Shown piece after piece: positions 1,725-21,980 of a stretch of 24,600 nucleotides of DNA (within the stretch, counting starts at the first letter, position 1; every line of letters begins with the position of its first letter). Origin of the DNA: a virus. The DNA lies in IMG/VR virus record IMGVR_UViG_3300030104_002362, positions 21,879 through 46,478 of that record; one strand, written 5' to 3'. Under the pieces are notes generated by a model, which saw only the letters and a list, made by a program, of their open reading frames with translations, was not told the DNA's origin and did not search any database. A program made the translations under genes and the position numbers.

Positions 1725-4700
1725 TTAATCATCATAAGACATATCAGCATCTGAATCACCATCATAATTTTCAACAGTTAAACTATGAGATGTTTGTTCT
1801 GCATATTCGCAAGCACAGCAGTCACTATCAATGCTATACATAGTACCACTAACAGTATTAAAGTTACTAAAGCCTGGTTGGTTAATATATTGATCTTGTA
1901 AATTAGGTATAGTAGAGAAGGCTTCTGGAAGTGGATCACTAGCTATGTTAGTGCATTGATTAAGTTCATTACACAGGTTGTTAGAAGGCGCGTAAGCTCC
2001 ACCACTACCACCAAATTGATTCAACCAAAACCACGGATAACTAGGGTTACTACCATAATTCCAGTTAAGTTGAGTGTTAGCTTCTGGATTATAATTTGTT
2101 GCTGTAGGGTCTGTGCAACCTTGGACTATGTAGTAACATGTTCCATCATAATAATGTGATTGTCCAGCGCCTATTGTTCCTGAAAAATCATTTAAACCAG
2201 CCTCACCACTTGTTGCGTATGGGTGATAATTAGCAGCAGCCTCGTCCATGCATCCGAATATTTGAGGTATACACGAACCATCATCTTCTTGAGCTGTATC
2301 ATCATAGTTTTGCGCATCTGGATCTGTACAGCCAAATAAGTATTGACAATCAGTACAAGGCCCATTATAATTCCAACCAACAGGAGCGTTCGTACAATCT
2401 TCATATTGATTAAAGCCAGCGTTAGCCATTATCATATTAGCCCATTCTTCATTATAGTTAGAAGCGGTTGGGTCAAAACAACCATAAGCCGTGTAAGTGC
2501 AAGCACCTTGTAAATATACAGTTGCAAATTCATCAAAATTATTTGCCTCAGGATCGGTACAACCCTCTATTTGCTCAGGATAAGTAGCGCAAGGACCTAA
2601 CTCAAGTGTTTGACCTGGGTTATCTGGATCCGGGTACTCTCCACAAGGGCTACCTTCAACGCAATTAGTGGTACACGGACCACTCATTCCTAAAGTTTCC
2701 CACTGTGGAACCAAGCCGTTTAACGGTTGACTACCACAATATTCTAAAGCAAGTGGGTCCATACAGCCCGGTGTTCCACAACCTCCTAACCCATCTTCTA
2801 TACCATAACAACATTGAGCATCATCACTTATGGTACATACAGGGCAGAAATTAGCAGCTGTAGGATCGGTGCAACCAACGCAAGATGAGTATTCACATGT
2901 GCCATCATCTAATATAGCTGCTGGATCGTAGTTACATGCCGCTATATCTGTGCAACCTGGTACCTGGTCATTAGGAGTTATGCAGTCCTCGGGATTACTT
3001 ACTGTAGCTAATGGGTTGTATTCGTAAAAGTTAGGATCTGTGCAACCTTCAATACATTCGACGCATTCATTATTATACAAACATAAACCGTCTGGACAAA
3101 CCTCAAGGTAGACACAAGGTGGATATAAAGCGTTTGCTGAACTTTCAATATATGAGTCTATCATACCAACTGAATTTGGTGCATTTAAGCCATCAGAAGT
3201 ATAAGCATCAGCGTTGTAACCAGGATCAGATTCATCTGTCACTAAAATTTGTGGACATGGAACCTCCCAGCCCAACCAGAAGCATCTACCTCCAGTTGTA
3301 GCACCTGGTTGATAGTTTGCGGCTAAAGGATCTGTACAACCATACTGATAAGGATAGCAATCCATACAATTAGGTTGACAGGCATTAGACCACTCAGACC
3401 CTTCTTGACCGTTGGTTGTATCTAAAGTTGTAGTAGCATATTGATCGTAATTAGGAGCCATAGGATCCATACAAGCTGTAAATGAATAAATACAACCGCC
3501 ACTATCTACAGTCGCCTCTGCGTCATAATTTTCAGCAGTCTCGTCCATGCAGCCTATTATTACTTGGTTTATATCAACGCAACAACCACCTTCAGATTCA
3601 TCACAAGGTATACATTCTTGCCATGATGGACAAGGTGGTATACAGTCGTTAGGTGGATTAACTTCTATGTAAGTTATAGAACCAGCTGGCCCTATTCCTT
3701 GAACTGTAAACTCATCTGTTTCTATTTCTGGATCATTGTAATCTCTTCTTAACCCAACAATATTGTTAAACCATTTTCCTTCCTTCTTTTTAAATGATGT
3801 TATTTGGCCACTAGATAGATCAGTCATTAGTCCAGATATAAACCAACCATCTTGATTATGTAGATTATAATGTTCATTATCTATTGCATTTACCAAATTA
3901 GTCTCACTACTAACTATATCACCACTTTCGTTTGTTACGGGATTTCCAGTATAAGCTACTACTTGAGCCCCAATAAAGCTGTCTATTTTAGCTTGAGAAC
4001 CCTCGTAGCTTATTGTTTTGAAAGATTTAACAACATCAGGCATATCATTAAATAAAAACGTTATTCTTGAATTAACAGGATCTTGACCATAAAATGTATT
4101 TCTGTCTGCTACATTATCGTAGTGTCTATATACTGAATGTCTGTAGGATGTAATGTATTGTCCGCTAACGGAAAGACCAGATGATGGAATAAATGATTTA
4201 AAACTAACCCACCCTTTATTAGCTTCATTAAATGAAACTGTTTGCTCACTTAGTTTATAGGGATCACCATAAACCATATTGCTTAAAGTTAAGTTATATT
4301 CACCTAAAACAATATCGAAAGTTCCTAATGAAGAACTAGCTTGTTTAAGTTTTGTTCTAAACCACGTTTTCATACCAACTTGAGATATTGGAGTTAACCC
4401 ATCTCGTGATAATCTTAACACTGCACCTCTTTGTTTATCTGTAAAGTACATCCTATACTGATCCCACGCTAATGATTCTGGATTTTTAGATATACCATAA
4501 TCACCAACAAAAGGTACCGCTGTACCAAGAACTCTATCTGAGGCTGTTAGCTGAGTATTTCCATCAGCATTATATAAAGCATCTTTGTTAGCTAGTATTT
4601 TTAATATTTTATCTTCAGCTAAAGCAACAACATCTGTATCTCTTGTTCTTAATCTTTGTATTGAACCATAGGCTGGGTTTAACTCCTTGGTTATTTTTTG

Positions 4701-7700
4701 AGACATGTTAAACTCATTCAGGTTATTAACCTGAGATGAAGCATTATATATACCTGAATATATTAAACCACTACCTAGAACCTCTTCACCGTATCCAGAA
4801 AATGTTGTTGATACTTTAACACCATTATCTATTTGTGGTGCATTAAAGTCATCTCTTACTCTATCTGATTCTACTCCATTACCAAAAGCATAGCAATTAA
4901 ACCAAGGTAATGTTACTTCTTGATTCCACACATCAAGATCTATACCATAGAATCCAGTAGGATATTGACTAGGACTCTGTCTAAACGCTTTGGGCCCATT
5001 TAATAAACCTTTATCGTATTGTATATACGTTGTGCTAGCGTTAAACTCTGATACGTTTAGAGTATTAAATGTATCAGGAACAAGTCCTTGATCGTTATCA
5101 TCAGGATTAATTGGCTCATAATAACAAGATATTTTAGCCTGCGTCCTAGTTCCATTACTATGCTCGAAAACAATAGTATCACCTATTTGGAAATACTTTT
5201 CCATCGATACACTAGTATCTACTGTACCATTGATATTATAAGGGCCTTTGTGTAAGTATGTATTAGTTTGATTACCTTCATCTCTGTCAGAAACTATAGT
5301 TATTATAGCGTGATCAGATTTGTCACCAGACATAAAGGCATTAGAAACTCTATGATTACCCCTTTCTTTAGCATGCGGTACAATAGACGTGGTTCCCTGT
5401 GTTGTTCTTTTTATAAACACGTTAGAATTTATAGGAGCAAAATCAAAAACATTATCTTTGTTTAATACCATTGGGATAGCACCTGAAGCCTCGTAGTATA
5501 TGTCTAAATCACTATCTTTTTTAGGTTCAGTTTCCCAACAAGCACCTAATTCATTATTAGGGCTGTCATCATTATATGATAACATTGTTTTTTCTTTAAT
5601 CATAATAGGTATAGCGTCTCTACCATCATGGTGTAACGCTCCACGCGGGTCCCAAATACTTGGGTCTAAACCTCTATTGCAGTCACCATCCCAACAGTAG
5701 TCTCCAGAAAATCTATTTACTCTCTTAAACCTTATAACAAGTGATTGTCTCTGGCAACCATTTTGATAATTGTGTGTGTATCCACCATTTACAAAACCAC
5801 CATTACCACTTATTATATTGCTTGGGTTTGGTGAGTTAGGCCAGCTACCTATACTATTACTACCAAAGGTCCATGGTTGTGGCCCATTGTCCCCAAATGT
5901 ATCACCTGGAGGTAGCATTCCAGAATAGCATGGAACACAAGATTCTGTGTAGTAATCAAGTGGCCACTCACCAACTGACAAAGAACCACCAGTAATAGTG
6001 GTAACAAAATCAGTTGTTCTAGGGTGTATAGATCCGTGACTGTGATTAGCACCGGAAACTTGTATAACCTCCACAACCTCGTAAATATCTTCAGGCGCAC
6101 CACCACCAAATTGAAAATACGTTCCCACCTCACTTAATTCACTATATAACCCATCTGCTTCGTTACCGTAATCTTCCCCAAGGTGTCTGATTTTTGATAT
6201 AACTATCTCGCCCATATGGCCACTTTGAACAAAATTACCATTTCTAAGAGACCATGGTTTATAATAATGTGGCTCATCGTCATTAGTTGGATCGTTCCAA
6301 TATCTAGCTTTAGCGCCATCAATAAAAGCATTGTTTTTTACAGTACCTCCGGTATGAGAATCCTTGTCCATGTCATTAACGTACTCTTTCCAGAATGATG
6401 CTGTTTCAAAATTTCTATACCAAGGTCCTGATCCAAATACACCTTTGTTAGCTAGTTCTGCAAACTTATTATATCCATACTCATTATTCAATGCTGTAGC
6501 GTGTTCGTTGTGCCACATGTTATTTATTGGGCCACCGTCTTGTACAGGACTTGTACTTCCAAAAGCTACCCAACCATCAAAACCAAATGAATCACTACTT
6601 GGACGTGGTCCATTACCATAAGTAGCAGGGACATTATCTCTATAAAAATTATCATTCCAATCATAATCTGGGTGTAGAGATGTCGTACCTGGAACTACGT
6701 TTGCCATTCCAGCGCCAGCCCCATAACTCAATCCATTAAATATCCAATGACCAGCTACTAAGTTACCAGTGTATGAAGCATACCACGTACCACCAGTATA
6801 ATTACTCCACCAACCAGCTCTATTGTTACCAGAGTACTCTACAACACTATTGTTCCACTCTGATATGTCAATTGTTGGAGGGTCCCAATCAGAACCGTTC
6901 CAACCAGGAGAAAGAGTCGCTCCGAAATTACCATTAAACCAATCCCCATTATCTAGTGACGTTGTTGTCATTTCTAGGTCTATACCTGTCTGTGTAACAC
7001 TACCGTCTACTTGAGCGCCGTTTCTATAATCACTATCTATATACGACAAGTCATAAGTAGCTGTGGTCGTCCATTGGTAACCAAGTGAGTATATCATAAC
7101 AGCACTTTTTAAAACTTGATCTTGCTCTACCTTAACAAAAAATTTACCATCAAATTCAGGTCTATTTTTAACTTCAGTCTTTTTAAACTCTACAGAATAA
7201 ATTAAATCGTTAATGTCAATTGGATTTCCGTTGGAATCGTCAGCCATAGCATTGTCCCAATGAGCAAAAAAATTAGCGTCTTCATATAACGGTTCTCCCC
7301 AACTTATCTCAATCATATCGTCCGTTGTATCAAAAGTGTAGTTAGTTAAAGGTATCCATTGAGTTCTTTTTATGTACACTTCGCCGTTAACAGATTCATT
7401 TACCCCATCTCCATCTATGTCATTAACCCAAGATCTACCAATTATTCTCATATATACTTGAGTGGTAACACCAGCTGTGCTATCATTAAGGCCAGCACCA
7501 AAGAACACTCCTCCGTCATTTACATCGTAGGCAGCACCACCAGTAAAATCACCCATATCAGCCTCCCAAAGTGCCCTAGCAAATCTAGCTTTAGTTCTAG
7601 CGTAAAACCCTGTAGCGACAGCACTGTTAGGCCCCGAACCTGTTTCCCATATATCCGTGTTAAATTGATTTAATGCCCAACCAGGATTACCTGAATTTCC

Positions 7701-10331
7701 ATTGTTAGCTGATGCAGCGCCTGTTCCTGTTTCAACATCTGGTGTTACAGATCCAACCGTACCAAGTATACTGTGATGCGATTTAATATAATCTGGAGCT
7801 TCATTTTCTATAGCTAGTATTTTGTATCTAGCTTTTTCTAAAACAGGATCTTGACTACCAAATCTATTTTTTAATATTAAGTAAGTTTCTTCATCAACCT
7901 TGTTTCTATCAGCAGAGTTGAATGATAACCACACGGTATTGTCACCTGAATCATACCATCTATCCATTACTAAGTTGTAATACTCGTTAGATGTTTCTTT
8001 AACGTAATATTTAACATACTTAATCCAACTATTTGGAGTGTTTTCATCTCCCCAGTTTTGAGAAACAACTAAGCTATTTTGGTTAGCGCATAGCGTTTTA
8101 GCAACTTTAATATCACCAGTAATAGCCTCATAATTTTCTTCAGTATCATTTATGGAAAATATATAACCAGAGGATATAACAGGAGTTTCTCTACCATATT
8201 TATCTCCAAACACCATACCAATCTTATAATCCCTAATTGATTTTATAGATTTCATAGCGGGTTGAGATTGTTCTGTAACTTCTATGGGTGTACTTACTAT
8301 GTTTTGAACTAAATTAATTGGTCCGTTTATATCATAACCTTGAACATAATTACCATATAATAATCTGTTACCAACAACCTCCTGTGCCATAGCAAATCTA
8401 GGTACATTATCCCATGCTCTTAATATTTGATTTTCAGGTAAAGCTCTGTGTATCATTTCTGATGTTATAGATAAGCTACCTGTTTTTATTTCTTCATCAT
8501 CAGAACCATCAGGCGTAAACAACTCCCACTCAGGACTCTTTTCTTTTTCAATAGTTTCTATAACGTAAGCATTTGGCGAATCTGTAGTTTTGTAAAGTAT
8601 ATCTATACTTGTAACATCCAATGGTATATTATATGGTATAAAATCTTTTATAACAAGTTCTCGTAAATTGTTAACCATTCCCAAATTATAACCCTTACTT
8701 ATTTTATAATCAAAATCACCTGGTAGAAAAGCTAACTCAGACCAAGGTGAAAACGAAGAATATTCACCATCAGTGTATTTATATCTATATCCAAATCTAC
8801 TTAGTTTTAACTCAAATAAAGGCTTTGATTGCTCTAATGTAATACTCCAGAAAGACTGTGAATAATCTAAAGAATCTGGAACACCTATAATACTAATTCT
8901 AATAAACTCTGTTGCTTCAAACACCTCGTTTCCATCAGAATCTTCGTAGCAAACAAATTGAGCTCTAACCTCTGTTGTTTCTTGATTATTCCAATTTCTA
9001 AATTCAAGTATATCACCAGCTCTATAATGCGTATCTGCTGAATCTATTTCAAAAGATTTAGTTTGACCTATTGAAAGTGTAGAAAATATACCAGCCTGTG
9101 TTATGAAATTACCAGACATGGTTGTTTCTGTTAATCCTTCTCTGTCATTTGGTTTCATGTGTAGAGATGGTGGGACTGTTGGAGCTTTACGTATTACTGT
9201 TATATGTTTTTCCTCTAAATAGCCTGGTAACCCAGATCCATTTGCTAAACCTCCGTTATCTAAAGGACTAGTTAAAGTACTAACGTCTTCAAATTCATTT
9301 GTGTTAGGATTGTTTATATATAATCTAGTATGAGTTCTACCATTGTTTACTACGCCATCTATATTAGTACCAGCTTTACATCTTGGTATATTTATTTTTT
9401 TAGGTTCGCTATGACCATCTGTCCACATTAAAAAATTATCAATAATATTAAGACCTGTTATATAGTCATTAACATTACCTTTAAAACTTCCATTGTTTAA
9501 ATATCTTTTTTCTTCTGACTCTCTAAATTTTAAAACTCTTTCTGCAACAAACTCTATGTAAGCTAAAGTATTTGGTTGAATAAACGTTTCTTGCTCTTCG
9601 TTTAACATAATAGTGTCACCATCTATAGCTCTAATAGTAACATCATTTGGTAGAACATTAAAACCGGAATTATTAAACATTCTAACAATCATGCCAGGTC
9701 TTAATTTTTCGCCATAGCCCTGTGTTAAGTATATTTCCTCCCAATTACCTTGATATGGATATCCAATAATTTGATCGCCTACTGCTGGGCTAAAATGATA
9801 TAATGCATTTTCAACCCTATTAACAATAGCAAAGTTGTCTATAACTACAGGTATAGTTAAATCTTGTGCGGAATCATATTCAACTATACTATCAACGTAA
9901 AATCTTTCATCACCCTCATAGTTGTCAATCCAACTCCCAGATTCAAATGGTATAGAGCTGAAAAAGAAATATGACTTATCTTTTTTTTCGTCAGCTATAC
10001 TAGCTACACATCTTTGGTGAAATGTCTCAGTAGCTGTAGCATTAACAGTGCCGTCTAAATTACTAGTAGCTCCTATACCGTATGGATTACCTTCCATCCA
10101 TTCTTGACTCCACGAGTCACCTACATTTATATTTCCTTGTATATTCTGAGCTGAACCAGCGTTACCAACAGCATCAGCAAAAGAAGTAGAGTCACTATTG
10201 TTACCACCTGAGTTATCGGTTGTCCTAACCTGAATATTAACCGCATGTCTGTATTCACCATTTTTAACAAGCCTTTCATCAAGGTCTTTGTTCATTTTTC
10301 CACCTGTGAAATTACGTTTTATTTCTGACAT
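1725..10331 (-). CDS. Giant multidomain phage tail/nozzle-like structural protein with GCTD repeats
   Basis: At 2868 residues this is over a third of the window. The N-terminus has FTGGKMNKDLDERL (residues 8-21) and GEYRHAVNIQVRTTD, a signature I know from long tail proteins of marine and crAss-like Bacteroidota phages. Further conserved blocks are WTDGHSEPKKI (about 303-313), FGYRYKYTDGEYSSFSPW (about 512-530), GDKYGRETPVISSG (about 710-725), and GISKNPES with RGAVLRLSRDGLTPIS (about 1946-1980), which look like beta-propeller blades. Between roughly 850 and 1850 is a Trp/Gly/Asn/Asp-rich region with one DIDGDGVNE calcium-loop-like motif (971-979). Residues 2260-2765 hold about twelve Cys-rich GCTD repeats, and the tail ends in acidic DGDSDADMSYDD. 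It starts 4 bases after the upstream ring-protein gene. I infer a podovirus-type nozzle (T7 gp12 or crAss muzzle analogue) extended into a host-contact surface. Tail role is likely; exact position in the virion is inference. Confidence 0.8.
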   Translation of the reverse strand: MSEIKRNFTGGKMNKDLDERLVKNGEYRHAVNIQVRTTDNSGGNNSDSTSFADAVGNAGSAQNIQGNINVGDSWSQEWMEGNPYGIGATSNLDGTVNATATETFHQRCVASIADEKKDKSYFFFSSIPFESGSWIDNYEGDERFYVDSIVEYDSAQDLTIPVVIDNFAIVNRVENALYHFSPAVGDQIIGYPYQGNWEEIYLTQGYGEKLRPGMIVRMFNNSGFNVLPNDVTIRAIDGDTIMLNEEQETFIQPNTLAYIEFVAERVLKFRESEEKRYLNNGSFKGNVNDYITGLNIIDNFLMWTDGHSEPKKINIPRCKAGTNIDGVVNNGRTHTRLYINNPNTNEFEDVSTLTSPLDNGGLANGSGLPGYLEEKHITVIRKAPTVPPSLHMKPNDREGLTETTMSGNFITQAGIFSTLSIGQTKSFEIDSADTHYRAGDILEFRNWNNQETTEVRAQFVCYEDSDGNEVFEATEFIRISIIGVPDSLDYSQSFWSITLEQSKPLFELKLSRFGYRYKYTDGEYSSFSPWSELAFLPGDFDYKISKGYNLGMVNNLRELVIKDFIPYNIPLDVTSIDILYKTTDSPNAYVIETIEKEKSPEWELFTPDGSDDEEIKTGSLSITSEMIHRALPENQILRAWDNVPRFAMAQEVVGNRLLYGNYVQGYDINGPINLVQNIVSTPIEVTEQSQPAMKSIKSIRDYKIGMVFGDKYGRETPVISSGYIFSINDTEENYEAITGDIKVAKTLCANQNSLVVSQNWGDENTPNSWIKYVKYYVKETSNEYYNLVMDRWYDSGDNTVWLSFNSADRNKVDEETYLILKNRFGSQDPVLEKARYKILAIENEAPDYIKSHHSILGTVGSVTPDVETGTGAASANNGNSGNPGWALNQFNTDIWETGSGPNSAVATGFYARTKARFARALWEADMGDFTGGAAYDVNDGGVFFGAGLNDSTAGVTTQVYMRIIGRSWVNDIDGDGVNESVNGEVYIKRTQWIPLTNYTFDTTDDMIEISWGEPLYEDANFFAHWDNAMADDSNGNPIDINDLIYSVEFKKTEVKNRPEFDGKFFVKVEQDQVLKSAVMIYSLGYQWTTTATYDLSYIDSDYRNGAQVDGSVTQTGIDLEMTTTSLDNGDWFNGNFGATLSPGWNGSDWDPPTIDISEWNNSVVEYSGNNRAGWWSNYTGGTWYASYTGNLVAGHWIFNGLSYGAGAGMANVVPGTTSLHPDYDWNDNFYRDNVPATYGNGPRPSSDSFGFDGWVAFGSTSPVQDGGPINNMWHNEHATALNNEYGYNKFAELANKGVFGSGPWYRNFETASFWKEYVNDMDKDSHTGGTVKNNAFIDGAKARYWNDPTNDDEPHYYKPWSLRNGNFVQSGHMGEIVISKIRHLGEDYGNEADGLYSELSEVGTYFQFGGGAPEDIYEVVEVIQVSGANHSHGSIHPRTTDFVTTITGGSLSVGEWPLDYYTESCVPCYSGMLPPGDTFGDNGPQPWTFGSNSIGSWPNSPNPSNIISGNGGFVNGGYTHNYQNGCQRQSLVIRFKRVNRFSGDYCWDGDCNRGLDPSIWDPRGALHHDGRDAIPIMIKEKTMLSYNDDSPNNELGACWETEPKKDSDLDIYYEASGAIPMVLNKDNVFDFAPINSNVFIKRTTQGTTSIVPHAKERGNHRVSNAFMSGDKSDHAIITIVSDRDEGNQTNTYLHKGPYNINGTVDTSVSMEKYFQIGDTIVFEHSNGTRTQAKISCYYEPINPDDNDQGLVPDTFNTLNVSEFNASTTYIQYDKGLLNGPKAFRQSPSQYPTGFYGIDLDVWNQEVTLPWFNCYAFGNGVESDRVRDDFNAPQIDNGVKVSTTFSGYGEEVLGSGLIYSGIYNASSQVNNLNEFNMSQKITKELNPAYGSIQRLRTRDTDVVALAEDKILKILANKDALYNADGNTQLTASDRVLGTAVPFVGDYGISKNPESLAWDQYRMYFTDKQRGAVLRLSRDGLTPISQVGMKTWFRTKLKQASSSLGTFDIVLGEYNLTLSNMVYGDPYKLSEQTVSFNEANKGWVSFKSFIPSSGLSVSGQYITSYRHSVYRHYDNVADRNTFYGQDPVNSRITFLFNDMPDVVKSFKTISYEGSQAKIDSFIGAQVVAYTGNPVTNESGDIVSSETNLVNAIDNEHYNLHNQDGWFISGLMTDLSSGQITSFKKKEGKWFNNIVGLRRDYNDPEIETDEFTVQGIGPAGSITYIEVNPPNDCIPPCPSWQECIPCDESEGGCCVDINQVIIGCMDETAENYDAEATVDSGGCIYSFTACMDPMAPNYDQYATTTLDTTNGQEGSEWSNACQPNCMDCYPYQYGCTDPLAANYQPGATTGGRCFWLGWEVPCPQILVTDESDPGYNADAYTSDGLNAPNSVGMIDSYIESSANALYPPCVYLEVCPDGLCLYNNECVECIEGCTDPNFYEYNPLATVSNPEDCITPNDQVPGCTDIAACNYDPAAILDDGTCEYSSCVGCTDPTAANFCPVCTISDDAQCCYGIEDGLGGCGTPGCMDPLALEYCGSQPLNGLVPQWETLGMSGPCTTNCVEGSPCGEYPDPDNPGQTLELGPCATYPEQIEGCTDPEANNFDEFATVYLQGACTYTAYGCFDPTASNYNEEWANMIMANAGFNQYEDCTNAPVGWNYNGPCTDCQYLFGCTDPDAQNYDDTAQEDDGSCIPQIFGCMDEAAANYHPYATSGEAGLNDFSGTIGAGQSHYYDGTCYYIVQGCTDPTATNYNPEANTQLNWNYGSNPSYPWFWLNQFGGSGGAYAPSNNLCNELNQCTNIASDPLPEAFSTIPNLQDQYINQPGFSNFNTVSGTMYSIDSDCCACEYAEQTSHSLTVENYDGDSDADMSYDD
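2040..3554 (-). repeat. About twelve degenerate GCTD Cys-rich protein repeats inside the giant tail gene
   Basis: Residues 2260 to about 2765 contain units opening with GCTD, GCMD, ACMD or GCFD, then roughly PxAxNYxPxA, then an acidic or Gly turn and a second Cys. Examples are GCMDETAENYDAEAT, GCTDIAACNYDPAAILDDG and GCTDPDAQNYDDTAQEDDG. Spacing varies from about 24 to over 60 residues, and the units are diverged in DNA, so this is an old protein repeat array. The paired Cys residues suggest a disulphide-closed or metal-binding module suited to an extracellular surface. The motif is familiar from secreted proteins of marine Bacteroidota. Confidence 0.85.
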
Positions 10332-10335
10332 AATA

Positions 10336-11232
10336 TTATTTTATTGGTTTGCTTAAGCCCTTAAGAACTTGAGTAAATTCTTCTATTTTAATACTAGATA
10401 ATCTAATTTTTGCTTTTCTAGTTTCAGCAAACTTTTCTTTTTTGTATCTTTGCACTATATACTCTGGCACATTTGACTTGGTAGCTAATACGCCGTAAGC
10501 TATGTGCTTATAACAAGCTTCTTCGCAAAACTTATGTACCACCATTTCATCATCAGTGCCTAATCCATCACTAATATAATGCAGCGTAACTGTTTCACCA
10601 GCTAATGAAGAACCAAATCTTATAGTTTGTTGTAAGTTATCAATATAAAACACTCCATTACCTTGTGCATATTGAGGATCTAGACCATACCTTCTACCTC
10701 TATTATCAAACTCTAAATCGTTGGGTTCATTTGTACTTACCTCAGATACCGCTTGCTCGTTAAAGTTAGATAACGTATCTGATACACTAAGCGTAGATAA
10801 ATCGTCATTAACATTTATAGTCCAGTTATTTGCTAAATTTTGAGTAATTGGAGCTGGATTAGAAGTGTTTCTTGCTGGATGCAATAATAGCTCCACGCCG
10901 TTAGCGTCTACTTTAACTACTTTCACGTAGTTAACATAATCTTGTGGTAGTGGGGCTGATAGACGGTTACTTACTTCCCACTCTAAAGCTTTAATAGATC
11001 TAAGCACATCATATGATAACTCTTGTATAGCGCGCATAGCGTGAAATTGAACATCTGTTCTACTTACTTTATTTATTATTTTATCTTCACCAACATACGC
11101 AACCATAAAAGCTGATATAATATTTTCTAAAGTAACAAACCTATATTGATCACCTGGTGTGCCAATGTAAGTATTTTGTTGCTGATATAAATCTAAGTAT
11201 TCCCCGTATGTTTGATCGTCTAATAATCCCAT
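10336..11232 (-). CDS. Ring/tail-tubular adaptor-like connector protein
   Basis: 298 residues. The central block NKVSRTDVQFHAMRAIQEL (54-72), SYDVLRSIKALEWEV (73-87) and LPQDYVNYVKVVKVDANGV (95-113) resembles the 'HAKRGLQE..YDTL...LPQDYVNYV' signature I recall from ring proteins of crAss-like and related podoviruses, functionally similar to T7 gp11 (tail tubular A). A helical N-terminal half, a beta segment at about 95-220 and a helical basic C-terminus fit an adaptor that forms a dodecameric ring under the portal. It lies 2 bases after the preceding connector gene and 4 bases before the giant tail gene, as expected for neck/tail assembly. The start is ATG in an AT-rich leader (AGTTAATTATG). 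The family likeness is from memory of motifs, so the connector role is probable and the exact ring position uncertain. Confidence 0.65.
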   Translation of the reverse strand: MGLLDDQTYGEYLDLYQQQNTYIGTPGDQYRFVTLENIISAFMVAYVGEDKIINKVSRTDVQFHAMRAIQELSYDVLRSIKALEWEVSNRLSAPLPQDYVNYVKVVKVDANGVELLLHPARNTSNPAPITQNLANNWTINVNDDLSTLSVSDTLSNFNEQAVSEVSTNEPNDLEFDNRGRRYGLDPQYAQGNGVFYIDNLQQTIRFGSSLAGETVTLHYISDGLGTDDEMVVHKFCEEACYKHIAYGVLATKSNVPEYIVQRYKKEKFAETRKAKIRLSSIKIEEFTQVLKGLSKPIK

Positions 11233-11234
11233 AA

Positions 11235-12026
11235 TTAACTATTTTGATTTTGCTTAGTTGTTTGTTGATCAACCATAACTGATTGTTGTAGTTCTGGTTT
11301 TTCTATTGTAACACCAGCTAATTTTAATATTCTCATAACTAACGGTTCTTCTTCAGAAGCGTGTAAGAAAAAATTAGTACTAGTGTTAAAATTATATAAC
11401 GCTTTTTGATTAACAACTACATATCCCCAGTTAGGTCTCGGTGGTTTCGCCCAGTACTCAATTGATAGGGTTGGGTAGAAGTCGTCAATTGCAGGATATA
11501 TTTGCAGACTGTAAACGTGTTGATTTGTGTTCTGCGTTATCATACTACCTGCTCTAATGTAAACAGGTCTAGATCTTGTTGGCGAAGTTAACGGATTAGA
11601 CATCATAGACCTTAACGTGTGATTATCAACTTCCATTATTTCAGTACCATTACCACCACCTGATATTGGCTTTCTAACAGTAGCAACCATATATAAAGTG
11701 TGATTGTCTATACTGTCTGGAGTTGTTGTACTATAATTTAACACGCTATAAAAACCCTCATCAGCAGAGGAAGCGGCAGAAAGCGGGTAAGTCCTAGCAT
11801 TCCTAATAGCATTAAGCTTTTCTCTAACCATACCTATTTCATCAGAGTTTTCTGTTTGATTTTTAGGTTTTAAGTTAGCGGTTTTTATAGTATGGAAATA
11901 ATCATTTATTAGTTCCATTTGAGCTTTGTCGGCTAGCAAATTAAATTCTTGAGGAGTTATATAACCTCTCTGCTCTTTATTAGCTAGTGCTAAAACCTTT
12001 TGATATACTCTATCTACGTTTACCAT
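11235..12026 (-). CDS. Putative head-tail connector / second ring-like structural protein
   Basis: 263 residues, no membrane segments. The N-terminus carries NKEQRGYITPQEFNLLADKA (16-35) followed by a helix, a block I associate with conserved structural proteins encoded beside the neck genes of marine Bacteroidota phages. The middle is beta-rich (about 85-200, including PVYIRAGSMITQ and LQIYPAIDDFYPTLSIEYWA). The end is a helix (EEPLVMRILKLAGVTIEKPE) and a Gln-rich tail (QQSVMVDQQTTKQNQNS). It sits between the 53-aa CGC gene and the ring/adaptor gene with gaps of 5 and 2 bases, which supports a head-completion or neck role. The specific function is inferred from place and shape only; a stopper or a tail-attachment protein are alternatives. 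Confidence 0.55.
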   Translation of the reverse strand: MVNVDRVYQKVLALANKEQRGYITPQEFNLLADKAQMELINDYFHTIKTANLKPKNQTENSDEIGMVREKLNAIRNARTYPLSAASSADEGFYSVLNYSTTTPDSIDNHTLYMVATVRKPISGGGNGTEIMEVDNHTLRSMMSNPLTSPTRSRPVYIRAGSMITQNTNQHVYSLQIYPAIDDFYPTLSIEYWAKPPRPNWGYVVVNQKALYNFNTSTNFFLHASEEEPLVMRILKLAGVTIEKPELQQSVMVDQQTTKQNQNS

Positions 12027-13227: not shown

Positions 13228-14748
13228 CTACTTCAATAAGAAGAAGTTGTTAGCACCTTGAACTACTAGACATCTTTCAGAAAGGTAGTGTACCTCCATC
13301 GCGTCTAGATCAGATGTAGTTGCTCCAACAGAACCAGTGACCCAAGTTTTTAATCTTCTGTCATCAGTTTGAGAAGCTCTATATCTAACGTGTAAGAATG
13401 GTCTTTTCATATTCTTACCCATTTGTTGGTCATAAACCGAAGAAACTCCAGCAGGAACCATAACACCTCTTATTGCTCCAGTAGCGTAAGCAGCGTTAAT
13501 AGCACCTCTAGTTTGAGAATCATTTAGATATTTCCAATCAGATTTATAGAAGTCATAAGAACCTCTTCTAAATCCTGAGAAGCCTAAGTTTAATGCCATA
13601 TCTTCTGAGTTGTCAAATACTCCGTAAGAAGTACCTCCAGCTCCGTAAGAATTCATAGAAGCTAACATGTCGTCCATAGCTAAAGCAGTTGCTCTATTTA
13701 CAAACATCATGTTTTCTTCAATAGAACCTTGTCTATCAAGTTCAGCTAACATAGCATCAAACTCTGCTAAATCAGTAGCAGCGTTGATACCATTAACACC
13801 TGTAGCGATATTACCACGAGTTTCAATAGCTGAAAATAAACCTTCAGTACCGAAAGTAGCTTGTAAGTAATCACCACCACCAGTAGCATCTAAAGTATCA
13901 GCTGTTGATTGAGCAGCATCACCCTTGACAGATTCTATTAAAGACATTTCTAAGTAATCAGAGAATCTAGCTCTAGTATCACCTTCAGCCTTTAAGTACC
14001 ACATATAACCATTTTGTCCAACTTCACCTGAAACTTCAACCCAACCAATTTGAGATGCATCAGATCCTGAAACGTGATACATGTCTTTTAATATAATTGG
14101 TTTGTTAGTTAAAGATTTGAAACCTGGTTGGTTAGCAGCAGCTCTACCATTACTTCCTTTTCTGTATTCAGATCCGTAAACAAGGATAGTGTAATCCACG
14201 TCACCATCAGAACCAGCAGCAAAACCAGTAATAGAACCTAATTGACCGTTGTTGTTAGTTGCGTCATAAGGAGCTACTGAAATGTTTTTTCCAGCAACAG
14301 CTGTTACAAAACATCTAGCCACCGCACTAGCGTTAGCTACAAGAATTGTATCACCAGCTCTAACACCGTGATCAACAACAGTAGCTGAGTCAGTAACTGT
14401 ATGTCCATCTATAGTTGTTTCTAATTCGATTGTACCACCCGCAGCACTGTTATTTCCAGTTTGTGCAGTAGCGTTTGCTATATATCCTTTATAAGCAAAG
14501 TGTAATCTACCTTGCTCAGACCAAACTACTTGGTCAGATGTCATAGCCTCTTCTGCTCCGACTTGCTCTAGAAATCCACCGATTGTTCTGTTTCCAAAAA
14601 TCTCAGCTTCTCTAGCCATTAAGTCAGGCAGGTATTGTTGAGCCCATCCGTCAGAAGCACTTAAAGTAGCGAAATCAATATAGTTAGTTGATAACGTTCT
14701 TTTAACTGTTTCTGGCAAGCCCGTTAAAGTTGCGCCTGTAATTGCCAT
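13228..14748 (-). CDS. Major capsid protein, HK97-type fold likely
   Basis: 506 residues that assemble the icosahedral shell. The N-terminal arm is helical (LPETVKRTLSTNYIDFATLS, then LPDLMAREAEIFGNRTIGGF). VDHGVRAGDTILVANASA near 126-143 looks like a beta insertion domain. The C-terminus contains RPFLHVRYRASQTDDRRLKT and DLDAMEVHYLSERCLVVQGA, which I recognise from capsid proteins of uncultured marine phages. The protein is rich in Ala, Gly and Thr with even composition and few Cys, as is usual for MCPs. Its place after TerL, portal and scaffold, at an MCP-like length, confirms the role. The gene follows the scaffold gene after 19 bases and ends in a strong terminator hairpin. The HK97 fold is expected for the family but not shown by motifs alone. 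Confidence 0.87.
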   Translation of the reverse strand: MAITGATLTGLPETVKRTLSTNYIDFATLSASDGWAQQYLPDLMAREAEIFGNRTIGGFLEQVGAEEAMTSDQVVWSEQGRLHFAYKGYIANATAQTGNNSAAGGTIELETTIDGHTVTDSATVVDHGVRAGDTILVANASAVARCFVTAVAGKNISVAPYDATNNNGQLGSITGFAAGSDGDVDYTILVYGSEYRKGSNGRAAANQPGFKSLTNKPIILKDMYHVSGSDASQIGWVEVSGEVGQNGYMWYLKAEGDTRARFSDYLEMSLIESVKGDAAQSTADTLDATGGGDYLQATFGTEGLFSAIETRGNIATGVNGINAATDLAEFDAMLAELDRQGSIEENMMFVNRATALAMDDMLASMNSYGAGGTSYGVFDNSEDMALNLGFSGFRRGSYDFYKSDWKYLNDSQTRGAINAAYATGAIRGVMVPAGVSSVYDQQMGKNMKRPFLHVRYRASQTDDRRLKTWVTGSVGATTSDLDAMEVHYLSERCLVVQGANNFFLLK

Positions 14749-16005: not shown

Positions 16006-18408
16006 TTAGAGACCTGGACCTTCAAATCCAGCGTTCCCCGTAAGTATATCATTACCTGATGACTCAAAATTATTAAGTGAATCACCCTGTTTTCTTTGCT
16101 CTATCATTTCTTTTTGTCTATCAGCCTGCATGTTAACTCTTTGATCTTTTCTATCTTCTCTCATTTTCTCGTCACCCATTTTAGTTTCCCTCTCCATTTG
16201 TTTTAATTGAGAGTTTAATTCAAATTCGTACTGCATTAATTCTTTTTTACCTTGAACCTCTGCTTGTAAAAACTGAGTTTGTAGTTGAGATTTAGTTTGC
16301 TCTATTTGTATATCAGACTGAGCTTTAGCATTGTTCTTTTCTATTTCAGCTTGAGCTGCTGCCTGCTGCGCTTGTTGGTTAGCTTGAGATTGAGCTTGTA
16401 TATTTTGCTGTTGCATAGCTTGATCTCTTTCCATTTTCTTTTTACGCTTAACCTTTAACAATTGATTAGCTAGTTTAACATTTCTAGTTGCTCTTAAGTC
16501 TATAGCGTCGTCTAAATCTATAGAGTCTTTTGATAAAGCAACTTGTATATTATTTTCTAACATCTGTCTTTCTTCTTCATCAGGTAGTAATTCAATAAAT
16601 ATACCAAAATCATGAAGATGTAATTCTTTAAGTTCTTCTAGTGTAGCAACATTATGCGCACCTATAGCTTGTATAAAAGCATTTTTAGTAGGGGAATACT
16701 CTACTATATCAGCTATTCTTAATGATAAACACTCTGCGACTTCAGCGGTTAAAAATAACATAGATTGTAATATATGTCTTGTGGCTGTATTTGAATTAGC
16801 AGCAGCTAACTTTTGTACACCAACCAAAGCATTAGCATCAGGCATACTACCGTCTCTAGCTTCATTAAGACCAGTTGTATCTCTTATCATTTGCATATAA
16901 TAATTATATGTAGTAATAAGACTTTGTATTTTATTTCCACCAGCTCCATTCTGTATTTGCTGTATTGGAACTTTAGCTGGGTTTATATCTCCTTCTGAAG
17001 TAAAACTTCTACCAACAACAGAACCAGTTTGAAAGAACATGTTTAAAGCTTCTTGCGGATTATAGTTTGTTCCATTACCGAGGTCAACCTCTGCTAGCCC
17101 ATCAACATCAAGATAAACACCATCTGGTACCATACGCGCCATTACTTGTTGTAGCTTTAAGTGTGTTAATTGTATCATGTCCGCAAAACCAGTTACTCTA
17201 CCAACTAATGATTCTATTTTACCTCTATACATTCTAGGCGCTACTATTTGATAGTTCATCTTAACGGTGTTGAAGTCTGAATCCGACCTCATCATGTTGT
17301 CACACATCTTCCATCTTAATAACTTATCACAACCAATTAAATATACACCTTCATATAAAGTCTCGACAACTCTTTCTAATTTACTAAAATCACCGTCCAT
17401 GTTTTCTACTGGAGGATTAAACGTATCATCTTTTTGTATTACTTTTTCAGCTCCAGTACCTAATGTCTTCAATTTGTAAACATCATTCATATGTGTTTTA
17501 TAATTAAAGTAAAGTACTTCTATTTTATTCTTATCTGGAAGTTTATTATATGTTGACCTTGTGTGGTTGGTTGTGCCAGACTTTCCAACTATTTCTTCTA
17601 TATCACTTTCAGTTAACTCAGGAAATTCAGATGCTAATTCATTTATAGGTATTTCTTTTAATTCCCCAACATAATATATATCATCAAAATAAGGAGATTC
17701 TGTATGAGAGTAAACCAAGCTAGCTGGATCAACATATTTAGCCTTTGCTCCACTAGCCCAATCAAATGTTGTTTTTGTAGCACCTATTCCTATTGTAGTT
17801 AAATCATACAAACACCTTCTTCTTATTAAGTCATAATCACTGTTTTCTAATAAAACATTTAAAGCTTGTTCTTCAGCTAACTCAACCGATTGTTTGTAGT
17901 TAAGTTGCATATGAAGTGCAAGCTCTTCTTCTGTGTCTGGTAGCATTTCAACATCATTTTCATACAAATCTATATTGAACTTTTGCTTGACCATTTCAGT
18001 ATATTCTTTAGACCTCATGTCTCTAAGTATAGATTCCATGTACTCAGTTCTTTTACTAACACCATATTGATCCTGTGAAAAAGCATTTATTTCAAAAGTT
18101 CTTTGAGCCATACCATTAACAACGATATCTACAAACTTAGGGATAATAGGTACTGGTTTCCAATCTAGATTTAAATAAGATAAATCACCATTAATAGATA
18201 ATTCATTTTTATATTTTTGAACAGATTGCTCACCTCTAGCATACAATCTTAATTCATGAAACTTATTTAAACTATTATGGTACTTGGTAACATTACCAGT
18301 AAACCACTCTTGCTTTATAGCTCTTGCAACCTTTAAACCATATTCTTGACTTAATTTTTCTAAGTCACTAACAGCTTGTGACGGAAAATTTATAACAGAC
18401 TCTGTCAT
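16006..18408 (-). CDS. Portal protein
   Basis: 800 residues expected to form the dodecameric DNA channel at one capsid vertex. The N-terminal part has LRLYARGEQSVQKYKNEL (53-70) and LDWKPVPIIPKFVDIVVNGM (81-100), a pattern typical of large portals of podoviruses and crAss-like phages. The middle has DTTGLNEARDGSMPDANALV, resembling the region before the portal clip and wing in these families. From about residue 650 the chain becomes a Lys/Gln/Ala-rich coiled coil (MQQQNIQAQSQANQQAQQ), the usual barrel-like C-terminus of long portals. The gene overlaps the terminase stop by four bases (ATGA), which suggests translational coupling, and the scaffold gene follows 26 bases downstream. Length and order fit well. 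Identification is by context and motif memory, so confidence is high but not absolute. Confidence 0.85.
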   Translation of the reverse strand: MTESVINFPSQAVSDLEKLSQEYGLKVARAIKQEWFTGNVTKYHNSLNKFHELRLYARGEQSVQKYKNELSINGDLSYLNLDWKPVPIIPKFVDIVVNGMAQRTFEINAFSQDQYGVSKRTEYMESILRDMRSKEYTEMVKQKFNIDLYENDVEMLPDTEEELALHMQLNYKQSVELAEEQALNVLLENSDYDLIRRRCLYDLTTIGIGATKTTFDWASGAKAKYVDPASLVYSHTESPYFDDIYYVGELKEIPINELASEFPELTESDIEEIVGKSGTTNHTRSTYNKLPDKNKIEVLYFNYKTHMNDVYKLKTLGTGAEKVIQKDDTFNPPVENMDGDFSKLERVVETLYEGVYLIGCDKLLRWKMCDNMMRSDSDFNTVKMNYQIVAPRMYRGKIESLVGRVTGFADMIQLTHLKLQQVMARMVPDGVYLDVDGLAEVDLGNGTNYNPQEALNMFFQTGSVVGRSFTSEGDINPAKVPIQQIQNGAGGNKIQSLITTYNYYMQMIRDTTGLNEARDGSMPDANALVGVQKLAAANSNTATRHILQSMLFLTAEVAECLSLRIADIVEYSPTKNAFIQAIGAHNVATLEELKELHLHDFGIFIELLPDEEERQMLENNIQVALSKDSIDLDDAIDLRATRNVKLANQLLKVKRKKKMERDQAMQQQNIQAQSQANQQAQQAAAQAEIEKNNAKAQSDIQIEQTKSQLQTQFLQAEVQGKKELMQYEFELNSQLKQMERETKMGDEKMREDRKDQRVNMQADRQKEMIEQRKQGDSLNNFESSGNDILTGNAGFEGPGL

Positions 18409-20639
18409 ATTTTACTTTTTATTATTGTTGATTGAAATCCTTTATTATTATACTTTGATATATTTAGGTTTACTTTGGTTTTTTCTTTAACTGGAGTAGG
18501 TCTATATAAATGTCTATTGCAAGCCATTATAGCTAAACCAGTACTAATAGAAGCATCATGCTTTGTTCTTTTAGTTATGTCAAATTTAGACCAGTCGTAT
18601 AGTGACTCGTTAAAATACATTGTTCCATACGTACCATCACTCAATAAACCAACATGGTCGTTGATATATGTTTCAATAGCGGCAGCATGTGCCTGCTTTA
18701 TATCTTCACTAGAATTAGGTATTCCACCTACTTCTTTTTCTGCAACAGATAATTTATTCCAAATTTTATCTGGTCTGTTCATACTAAAACCTCTATACCC
18801 TCTTCTTTTAAGGTAATACAAAAGTCTAGGTTTATTATTCTCTGCTAATAATGGCATTCCATAAAATACTAATGCCATCAAAACATCTTCAAAAAATATA
18901 TCAGCTGTCTGTGGTCTTGCTATATATTCTAGGAAGAATGTATTAGCTGGAGCATCTTCCATAGAAAACTTAGTTAATCCATGCAAAGCTCCTTTCGATC
19001 CAGTACCGTCAACTGTTCCAGATATATCATATGAGTCACAGCCAAATGCTCCCATATGTTCGTTACCCGGGTACTTTGTACCATTTTTTATAATAACGTT
19101 ATTTTGTAGTTTTTGTCCTGGAACCCAGCTCACTTTAAACCTTCCATTTGGATCTGGATTAAAAACAACCTGAGTATCTTTAATTCCATTTACCCATTGA
19201 AAGTTACCAGTTGTTAATACTGAAGAATTTCTGTTACCTTCATTGTAATCTATTTGCTCGTATATCTTAACTAAGTTAAATAAACTATTACCTGTTTCAT
19301 CTCTAAATGCGTGTTCTTCAGTTCTAGGAAACTGACGGTAAAATTCGTTTAAAGCATCTTGATCGTCTTTCAAACCATCAGCTTCATTATCCCAATGATC
19401 TATAACTCCGTAATCTATTTCTACTCCATGTGGATCAAATGCTTCTTCTTTAGGAGTATTAAACACGGGTTGTCCATATTGGTCAATAAATCCTTCGTAG
19501 TTCCATTCCATAGGGATAAACAAAGAATATAATCCTGACTTAGTTTGTCCATTACGGTTTCTTTTTGAGACATTTGAGTTATTGTATAAGTTTTTAAAAT
19601 TATCACCCCCTTTATCTAATGCGTTGGAAGTTGATCCCATCATACACTTACCTATTACTCTACTACCTAATCGCAAACAAGTTTTTGTAACTCTCCAGTT
19701 ATTTTTTATATTATCAGGTCTTTCCCACTTACCGCTTTCATCATGAACTAACAAAGCTAGCTTTTCACCGTCATAACTATTATCACCTGTATTCTTCCAG
19801 TCAATAGTAGTATCAAGACCTTCCATATCATCTTGCTCCTCGTGTTCTCTCATTTTTCTACGAGTAAACTTTTTTGCGGGTACCCTGTAAGCGAGCTCGG
19901 ACTTTGGTCGGTCCATACCGTCCTGTATTGGCTTGAAGAAGAATGGATAATTTAAACTAATAGGTACCACTTTGTCTGTAAACATCTTTTTCGCATCGGC
20001 ACCCGTTTTAGATAATATACCAAATCTACTATCACTAGCTAATGTTGCTAAGTTAACAGTTTCAGCTGAACTCATAAAAGAAAAACCAGAACGTCTATTT
20101 TTTAAATAACACATCCCATAACTTCTCTTATCTGCTTTACAAGCTTCCCAGAATATAAAGAATAATCTATTTGCCTCTCTAAAATCTGGAGCGCCAACAT
20201 CTATCTTGCTCCATTGCAGATACATGTAGTGTGTTCCTGTTATGTAGGTTGGTTTCCCATTATTCATAAACCAAAAACCTTCCTCTCTTCTCTTAAATTC
20301 TTCATCTATATATCCATAATGTTTTTCTTTAAAATCATCTGGATACGTTTGCCAATCGAACACCGTTTTAATTCTCTTAAAATCAGAATTAGCTGGAAAC
20401 TGCTTCCACTTTTGTTCTGACTTTATTTTGCTACAGCTATATACTTCTTTCGGTTGTTTAGGTAAAGCTATTTGTAGACCTTGTATTTCAAGTACTTCAC
20501 CAATTTGACCGCTTTTACTAATAGAAACAATATCATTTTCTTTATTATAACCGTATTTCCATTTTTTAGACTTATTAAGCCTTTTAATAGTATTTGACTT
20601 TATAGGTTCTACAACCTTATATAATGTTTGTTTATACAT
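18405..20639 (-). CDS. terL: Terminase large subunit (packaging ATPase and nuclease)
   Basis: 744 residues. It packages concatemeric DNA through the portal and cuts it. The ATPase shows a variant Walker A, NRRSGFSF (181-188), where the usual GK[ST] lysine is replaced by Phe; a Walker B LALLVHDES (294-302, D300/E301); and a coupling motif GSTSN (335-339). The nuclease half has a candidate metal-binding Asp in AFGCDSYDISG (D535 or nearby), FFLEYIARP (E571), and a late Asp in RTKHDASIS (D695), consistent with an RNase H-like fold. The gene starts by a one-base TAATG overlap with the upstream small gene and ends in an ATGA overlap with the portal gene. Residues 1-95 form a basic, structure-poor leader before the conserved FDWQTYPDDFKE. 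TerL is secure from motif order, length and neighbours; the exact catalytic residues are proposals. Confidence 0.9.
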   Translation of the reverse strand: MYKQTLYKVVEPIKSNTIKRLNKSKKWKYGYNKENDIVSISKSGQIGEVLEIQGLQIALPKQPKEVYSCSKIKSEQKWKQFPANSDFKRIKTVFDWQTYPDDFKEKHYGYIDEEFKRREEGFWFMNNGKPTYITGTHYMYLQWSKIDVGAPDFREANRLFFIFWEACKADKRSYGMCYLKNRRSGFSFMSSAETVNLATLASDSRFGILSKTGADAKKMFTDKVVPISLNYPFFFKPIQDGMDRPKSELAYRVPAKKFTRRKMREHEEQDDMEGLDTTIDWKNTGDNSYDGEKLALLVHDESGKWERPDNIKNNWRVTKTCLRLGSRVIGKCMMGSTSNALDKGGDNFKNLYNNSNVSKRNRNGQTKSGLYSLFIPMEWNYEGFIDQYGQPVFNTPKEEAFDPHGVEIDYGVIDHWDNEADGLKDDQDALNEFYRQFPRTEEHAFRDETGNSLFNLVKIYEQIDYNEGNRNSSVLTTGNFQWVNGIKDTQVVFNPDPNGRFKVSWVPGQKLQNNVIIKNGTKYPGNEHMGAFGCDSYDISGTVDGTGSKGALHGLTKFSMEDAPANTFFLEYIARPQTADIFFEDVLMALVFYGMPLLAENNKPRLLYYLKRRGYRGFSMNRPDKIWNKLSVAEKEVGGIPNSSEDIKQAHAAAIETYINDHVGLLSDGTYGTMYFNESLYDWSKFDITKRTKHDASISTGLAIMACNRHLYRPTPVKEKTKVNLNISKYNNKGFQSTIIKSKI

Positions 20640-21661: not shown

Positions 21662-21980
21662 CTTCTTTTTGATCTTCTTCTTTCGGCCAGTTAATAGTAC
21701 CATCTTCTAAGTTAACATCATAAGACCCATATTCTTTTTGTAATGTGTCCTGCAATACACTAACTCTATCTTGAGTTATAGATAAGTTATGAATCATAGT
21801 GTGTTTTTGAGATTCAATTTTACCTATATTAAATTGTAATTGATTTATAGTGTTAACTATTTGTTGCATTTGCTTTAAGTGTTCTTCTGAAACTCTTTCA
21901 GCTTTTACTTTTAATTCTATTTCTTTATCTTCAACTACTTCTTTAAAGTTTTCTGATTTTGTGTTTTCTTTTTTTGCCAT
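21651..21980 (-). CDS. Coiled-coil phage protein of unknown function (109 aa)
   Basis: 109 residues. Charged ends (MAKKENTKSENFKEVVEDKE; PKEEDQKEDEK) enclose a long helix predicted as coiled coil, from about 28 to 85, with heptad-like HLKQMQQIVNTINQLQFNIG and SITQDRVSVLQDTLQKEYG. A short YDVNLEDGTINW follows. I recall similar 'L-x-I-V-N-x-I-N-x-L-Q ... LxKEYG-x-V/D-I-N-L-x-DGTI' proteins in several Bacteroidota phages, with unknown role. It starts a cluster of four overlapping genes leading to terL, so an assembly or packaging accessory role is plausible but not shown. The start is ATG after AAATTAAATACA; there is no Shine-Dalgarno. The 38-base gap before it is only AT-rich. Confidence 0.6.
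   Translation of the reverse strand: MAKKENTKSENFKEVVEDKEIELKVKAERVSEEHLKQMQQIVNTINQLQFNIGKIESQKHTMIHNLSITQDRVSVLQDTLQKEYGSYDVNLEDGTINWPKEEDQKEDEK

Follow-up and report, generated by a model that had tools for sequence, protein, structure and literature searches.

The DNA analysed here, called the window, is a stretch of 24,600 nucleotides (positions 21,879 to 46,478 of IMG/VR record IMGVR_UViG_3300030104_002362, which has 46,478 bases in all). The following genes lie in it (window positions):

18405..20639, minus strand: terminase large subunit (PHROG match and TerL comparison)
16006..18408, minus strand: portal protein (PHROG 6547)
13228..14748, minus strand: virion structural protein, by gene order probably the major capsid protein (PHROG 13704)
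11235..12026, minus strand: upstream virion protein, 263 aa (PHROG 14543)
10336..11232, minus strand: upstream virion protein, 298 aa (PHROG 13977)
1725..10331, minus strand: muzzle-type tail-tip protein, 2868 aa (ORF; Pfam PF25729; PHROG 14478; homologues)

The 2868-aa ORF thus lies downstream of the terminase, portal, structural (capsid-position) and two further virion genes; the gene order is the same in the relative ctfjg026, and the neighbours are similar in Cellulophaga phage phi38:1 and in Elemovirus. A Pfam scan matched the ORF to PF25729 (crAss_MUZ_C) at 31.4 bits, against a cut-off of 27, and PHROG 14478 (virion structural protein) matched it at 1.3e-112. In addition, its homologues, gp97 of phi38:1 and an Elemovirus protein, are annotated as structural. 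A reading made earlier from the letters alone (the sequence-only reading) had taken the product for a phage tail protein, which these matches bear out and place at the tail tip, as a muzzle. At E<=1, the Pfam scan did not report the main muzzle model, PF25731, for the window protein; a related muzzle, L088, matches this model at 37.5 bits against 27. As for the virus, its terminase shares 45-63% identity with its best matches, which come from cultured Flavobacteriia podoviruses and one environmental genome, and all 87 phage records that it matched are of Flavobacteriia phages, except one environmental genome. By terminase and muzzle, the hosts of the nearest cultured phages are Cellulophaga, Flavobacterium, Tenacibaculum and Maribacter, and the nearest named relatives are Elemovirus and Callevirus (Pervagoviridae). 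The muzzle is, judging by its matches, of crassvirus type, and the virus itself is not filed under Crassvirales, since the records of these named relatives do not list that name.

Toward its C-terminus, the muzzle carries an array of short repeats, the GCTD units, bordered as follows:

3759..4106, minus strand: muzzle C-terminal domain, aa 2076-2191 (PF25729 match above the gathering score)
3555..3653, minus strand: Cys-rich preface before unit 1, aa 2227-2259, with 6 Cys (Cys pattern conserved in the related phages L003-L006; even Cys number)
2058..3554, minus strand: array of 12 GCTD units, aa 2260-2758 (unit HMM and regular expression; even Cys number per block), with units 1-6 starting at aa 2260, 2286, 2331, 2429, 2459 and 2486 and units 7-12 at aa 2522, 2590, 2617, 2667, 2693 and 2738
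3048..3293, minus strand: conserved long linker of unit 3, VPCPQ...PxYN...GxIDxY...C, aa 2347-2428 (aligned in L003 and L005, partly in L004)
1728..1784, minus strand: terminal strand motif SLTVENYDGDSDADMSYDD, aa 2850-2868 (common to array-less muzzles)

The array comes directly after the muzzle C-terminal domain and is followed by the short terminal strand motif. The about twelve GCxD...NY...C units that had been noticed at 2040-3554 were recovered at 2058-3554: exactly 12 [GA]C[TMF]D units are found by the expression [GA]C[TMF]D..A.NY, and the unit HMM scores the protein at 169.8 bits, against 5.3 bits for the best single domain in 500 composition-preserving shuffles. The GCxD tetrapeptide appears on average 0.08 times per composition-preserving shuffle, and a chance or low-complexity origin of the units is ruled out by the shuffles. 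The units follow the pattern GC(T/M)D..A.NY...A..DDGSC, and the family consensus, G-C-[TM]-[DN]-x4-N-[YF]-x6-D-D-G-S-C in tandem, is present in the array. The Cys-rich region is longer than the unit array, spanning aa 2227 (window position 3653) to about aa 2843, and the last 655 aa of the muzzle hold 54 Cys versus 12 in the first 2213 aa. Neither Pfam nor NCBIfam yielded an entry for the window repeat, and tblastn gave no match for the window array among cultured phages. When a canonical array was searched by tblastn against 50,697 phage records, the sole match was Marine virus AG-345-P14 (L249, Kyanoviridae), a single-cell virus of a cyanophage family, outside the Bacteroidota phages, in which three GCTD units are followed by Ig-like repeats.

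In all 17 complete array-bearing muzzles (17/17), the C-terminal region holds an even number of Cys, which would have a chance of 2^-17 if the arrays were independent, as related phages are not. Within the window, the preface and the 12 unit-and-linker blocks are each even (13/13; 6, 2, 4, 8, 2, 4, 6, 6, 2, 4, 2, 2 and 6), while the bodies of array-less muzzles, taken as a comparison, split into 26 even and 24 odd counts. In L003, L004 and L005, blocks are sometimes odd and totals even, so some bonds may cross block borders in these phages. Host segments were 32 even and 13 odd, and other IMG/VR segments 24 and 30, with boundaries that were drawn from HMM hits and are less exact. The natural reading of the even counts, in arrays and window blocks alike, is that the muzzle arrays would be completely disulfide-paired; disulfides have a known precedent in the tail of phiCrAss001 (PMC10172136).

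For the fold of the unit, we relied on a regular three-unit segment from L006, a related phage, not on the window array itself: modelled on an alignment of 59 rows that came from both host and viral loci, it reached a pLDDT of 94.2, and an AF2 model of the complete 658-aa array, built from 5 sequences, came to 31. A unit profile search of PDB sequences found perforin-2, which has the same 21-residue pattern (E=4e-4), and the L006 model superposes on the EGF-like module of that protein at 0.6 Å over 24 residues with 54% identity; Foldseek rates this short superposition weakly, with an E-value of 1.8. The predicted fold of the unit is thus a truncated EGF-like one of the perforin-2 type, an assignment that leans on the sequence match. 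The module, which we placed by position in perforin-2, lies between the MACPF and P2 domains at the hinge of the rearrangement and serves as a linker (PMC6989145). PDB sequence searches with the whole muzzle or the propeller profile returned nothing usable.

A first scan gave nine muzzle relatives, with the array present in four (L003-L006), absent in four and one truncated; a wider muzzle scan added 80 loci. Between the window and its relatives, reciprocal best units were collinear in 7/8 cases for L003 (p=0.001), 5/5 for L004 (p=0.01) and 5/5 for L005 (p=0.008). Unit collinearity was not significant for the pairs window-L006 and L003-L005 and for most pairs with L181. Several unit-specific linkers, the one of unit 3 among them, can be aligned between related phages, and mean identity within the clade is 37% for the array versus 60% for the propeller/MUZ_C core. 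Because reciprocal best units are collinear and unit-specific linkers conserved, the array appears to be an inherited, largely fixed 12-position architecture, in which the units mostly diverged in place. The variable spacing and linkers had been taken to mean that copies had diverged or been exchanged. Spacing and linkers do vary and the units have diverged, but exchange among the window, L003, L004 and L005 was rejected on the ground that these arrays are largely collinear; L006 and L181 fit less well.

The array also has a recognisable far border. Array-less muzzles frequently end in a short strand motif, e.g., FTLTIQENND or LTLTIQNDPND, and a similar ending stands after the array in the window (SLTVENYDGDSD...), L003, L004, L005, L181 and L228. 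Using a regular expression that is loose and was defined after the sequences had been seen, we found this motif within the last 45 aa of 6/17 complete array muzzles, against a mean of 0.23 and a maximum of 3 in shuffles, and of 8/45 array-less muzzles, against a mean of 1.58 and a maximum of 7. Flanked by the muzzle domain on one side and the terminal motif on the other, the array looks, on moderate evidence, like an insertion. The description of the array as a C-terminal extension of ~500 residues was therefore right about its position near the C-terminus but slightly off in the word extension, as a motif common to array-less muzzles follows it.

Across muzzles, the C-terminus behind the muzzle domain is hypervariable: some muzzles have a GCTD array there (2-12 recognised units), some have large domains of other kinds, and some have hardly anything. 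We mapped the array onto a muzzle tree of 68 rows, built from the propeller-to-MUZ_C part only. By parsimony the array label changes 8 times, with at least 5 changes forced by well-supported branches, and array carriers cluster beyond all 500 shuffles. The window's clade consists of six array carriers (support 96/83) inside a larger, mostly array-less clade, and several sister groups differ in the array (L040/L218, L200/L226 and L192-193/L197-195). The gain and loss for which the sequence-only reading had proposed to compare related phages is thus found: as far as such a tree, which counts changes and by itself does not distinguish gain from loss, can tell, the module is one that was gained or lost several times across muzzle lineages.

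Individual muzzles extend this picture of variation. In L195/L196, two GCTD units lie upstream of the propeller segment (aa about 1405-1455), marking a second insertion site, and in L088 the array is followed by a C-terminal domain that reads by eye like a DUF1566-type (lectin-like) module, with no Pfam hit. The L009 muzzle carries, C-terminal to its A4 propeller segment (about aa 2260-2310), a Cys-flanked insertion, DWICYANRYGDLLAAFGYDIDLLRNHYIDHGKNEGRIVACD, which is absent from the other muzzles read and looks like a different kind of short surface-protein repeat. Similar viral models are present in BFVD, including a protein of Virus NIOZ-UU157 named for the crassvirus muzzle C-terminal domain, and the combination of muzzle and GCTD units is thus already in public data, apparently undescribed.

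Turning to cellular genomes, a GTDB scan gave 78 loci with units, all of them in Bacteroidota MAGs except one CPR MAG, and the consensus GCTDPTAxNYDPxAxxDDGSC is common to 1364 host, 603 other IMG/VR and 82 muzzle units. Signal-like starts were seen in 46/64 unit proteins of hosts versus 74/367 background ORFs, and T9SS-type ends in 19/76 versus 4/367; Por_Secre_tail was found in several host unit proteins and likewise in the IMG/VR proteins L013 and L014. These loci, the shared consensus and the T9SS sorting domains uphold the statement that the repeat also occurs in secreted proteins of marine Bacteroidota. Confinement of the units to phages, which would have told against recruitment, was tested and did not hold, as the units were found in secreted, partly T9SS-sorted proteins of marine Flavobacteriales. 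Our literature search on GCTD repeats in Bacteroidetes gave no text. Four host genomes held 43, 56, at least 174 and at least 175 unit matches, of which the two highest (G002 and G003, host genomes of L099 and L136; 1.7 and 3.8 Mb) represent an extreme expansion of an unnamed repeat. The unit appears to be expanded in certain lineages and not general in Bacteroidota, because strong matches occurred in only 3 genomes, the centre included, of an even draw of 148 from the phylum. The window muzzle itself starts with MSEIKRNFTGGKMNKD, in which no signal peptide is seen by eye, and the Pfam scan gave it no sorting domain; it is a virion part bearing a GCTD module, not a member of the secreted host protein family. 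Some IMG/VR loci, including L012, L014 and L055, encode GCTD proteins of 700-1500 aa, a number of them with signal peptides and, in L013 and L014, T9SS sorting domains, and on one such contig a ribonucleotide reductase gene adjoins the GCTD protein, which is compatible with large phages. The contigs with T9SS-type GCTD proteins possibly carry phage-borne, secreted host-type surface proteins, or are host DNA.

The tail is closed by the muzzle, a presumed sensor of the cell surface whose own surface is altered by insertions (PMC10172136). We propose that a pool of GCTD modules, hugely expanded in secreted or surface proteins of some marine Flavobacteriales, the likely hosts, would have been drawn upon repeatedly by muzzle lineages, and that the window's clade would then have inherited its largely fixed 12-position array. 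Twelve tiny disulfide-closed modules inserted near the muzzle C-terminus would make a stiff, protease-resistant rod projecting from the tail tip, and this rod could engage the host surface or matrix multivalently, either ahead of the docking step that opens the muzzle or in the course of it. A muzzle that is a hexamer, like that of phiCrAss001, would bring the number of units per virion to 72. That the array is such a host-derived, disulfide-locked adhesive rod touching host surface or matrix is the reading that we rank first, at even odds, and its surface exposure, rod shape and adhesion are what we infer. Adhesion is favoured because the clade has no clear distal domain and its linkers are conserved. 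That the array changes faster than the core would be expected of a part in contact with the host, and it fits relaxed constraint as well. Against a rod count the long irregular linkers of the window's clade, versus the 26-aa period of the modelled segment, and against adhesion counts the fact that the sole structural match, the perforin-2 module, is a hinge or linker, not a binder. In any case, infection as such does not depend on the array, since that of the window is unmatched among cultured phages.

Alternatively, the array may be a spacer or stalk that only distances other parts or stiffens the tip, with binding located elsewhere, in other domains or in fibres. The role of the perforin-2 module between its two domains suits such a part, as do the variable number and spacing of units, the L088 array that precedes another domain, and the muzzles L214, L222 and L209, in which units alternate with FN3-like or other domains. 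In the window's clade, however, hardly more than a Cys-rich end and a 19-24-aa tail motif follows the array, leaving no clear distal domain to hold at a distance, and the conserved order of unit-specific linkers would be unexpected of a pure spacer. We therefore consider a mere stalk rather unlikely, yet the most serious competitor of the adhesive rod.

The host origin of the module can be questioned too. The sequence-only reading had proposed recruitment of a host module for adhesion, or mimicry, and recruitment fits the repeated gain or loss on the muzzle tree, but the direction is not given by unit phylogeny: units of 21 residues do not separate hosts from phages and are too short to root a tree. 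We infer transfer from host to phage from abundance and patchiness. Flow from phage to host, or multiple losses instead of gains of a feature that is ancient in muzzles, would agree with a tree that is blind to gain versus loss and with the finding that equal-sized host and phage unit samples are about equally similar. Yet copy number is far higher in hosts, the muzzles of phi38:1, Elemovirus and ctfjg026 end in unrelated array-less sequence, and the arrays of other muzzle clades are roughly as close to host-type proteins as to one another, all of which makes this course of events improbable. Slightly more doubtful still is homotypic docking or mimicry, in which GCTD-repeat proteins on the surface of the host are bound by the phage array or shield it: host genomes encode secreted proteins with matching units, from dozens to hundreds per genome, and the consensus is shared, but GCTD self-association is without evidence and the unit also occurs in the Kyanoviridae single-cell virus and mammalian perforin-2, where such a receptor is not obvious. 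As a long shot, GCTD might be a shared adhesion currency, with host proteins and muzzle arrays binding the same partner or each other, phages docking via host repeats, and the host expansion being partly an answer.

An unnamed repeat of many marine Flavobacteriales secreted proteins gains a confidently predicted truncated EGF-like fold and, from Cys parity, an argument that its disulfides are fully paired; its function can be tested on a short segment of a phage protein. The results also show the C-terminal end of crassvirus-type muzzles to be a place where modules can be swapped, a point of relevance to how these phages change host contact.

Among known systems, the closest is the BACON domain, a Bacteroidota-type domain that occurs in tandem on tail proteins of crAss-like phages and for which recruitment has also been considered (PMC6949934). 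Both are Bacteroidota-type surface domains arrayed in tail-associated proteins, with proposed host-surface binding and recurrent evolution. BACON is an Ig-like domain, in contrast to the ~21-aa disulfide unit described here, and its array in gut phages lies in a separate tail-associated ORF, whereas the GCTD array lies inside the muzzle of marine Flavobacteriia phages; the Pfam scan gave no BACON match in the window muzzle at E<=1. The phiCrAss001 muzzle, gp44, shares the PF25729 domain and is likewise a tail-tip protein that varies in length by insertions; there the variation involves crass and IG2 domains (PMC10172136), and in the window a GCTD array after the C-terminal domain. Phi38:1 gp97 and the Elemovirus structural protein are homologous tail proteins in a similar gene neighbourhood, but they measure 1324 and 1493 aa versus 2868, lack an array and have another C-terminal end. 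The secreted GCTD proteins of Flavobacteriales have the same unit and consensus and, in regular stretches, the same 24-27-aa period; they carry a signal peptide and often a T9SS C-terminal domain, of which the muzzle has neither, and the window units are more diverged than theirs, with longer linkers. The perforin-2/MPEG1 EGF-like module (PDB 6u23, 6u2k; PMC6989145) shares the 21-residue pattern and superposes on the predicted unit at 0.6 Å over 24 residues, but it is a single copy in an animal immune protein, where it links MACPF to P2. That crAss-like phages bear repeats of host type on their tails was already known from BACON, and the gain lies in the module, its place and its testability. 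As far as the literature was searched, what is new is the module itself, the site in the muzzle at which it is inserted, the record of gain or loss, the finding on Cys parity and the connection with the perforin-2 EGF-like fold.
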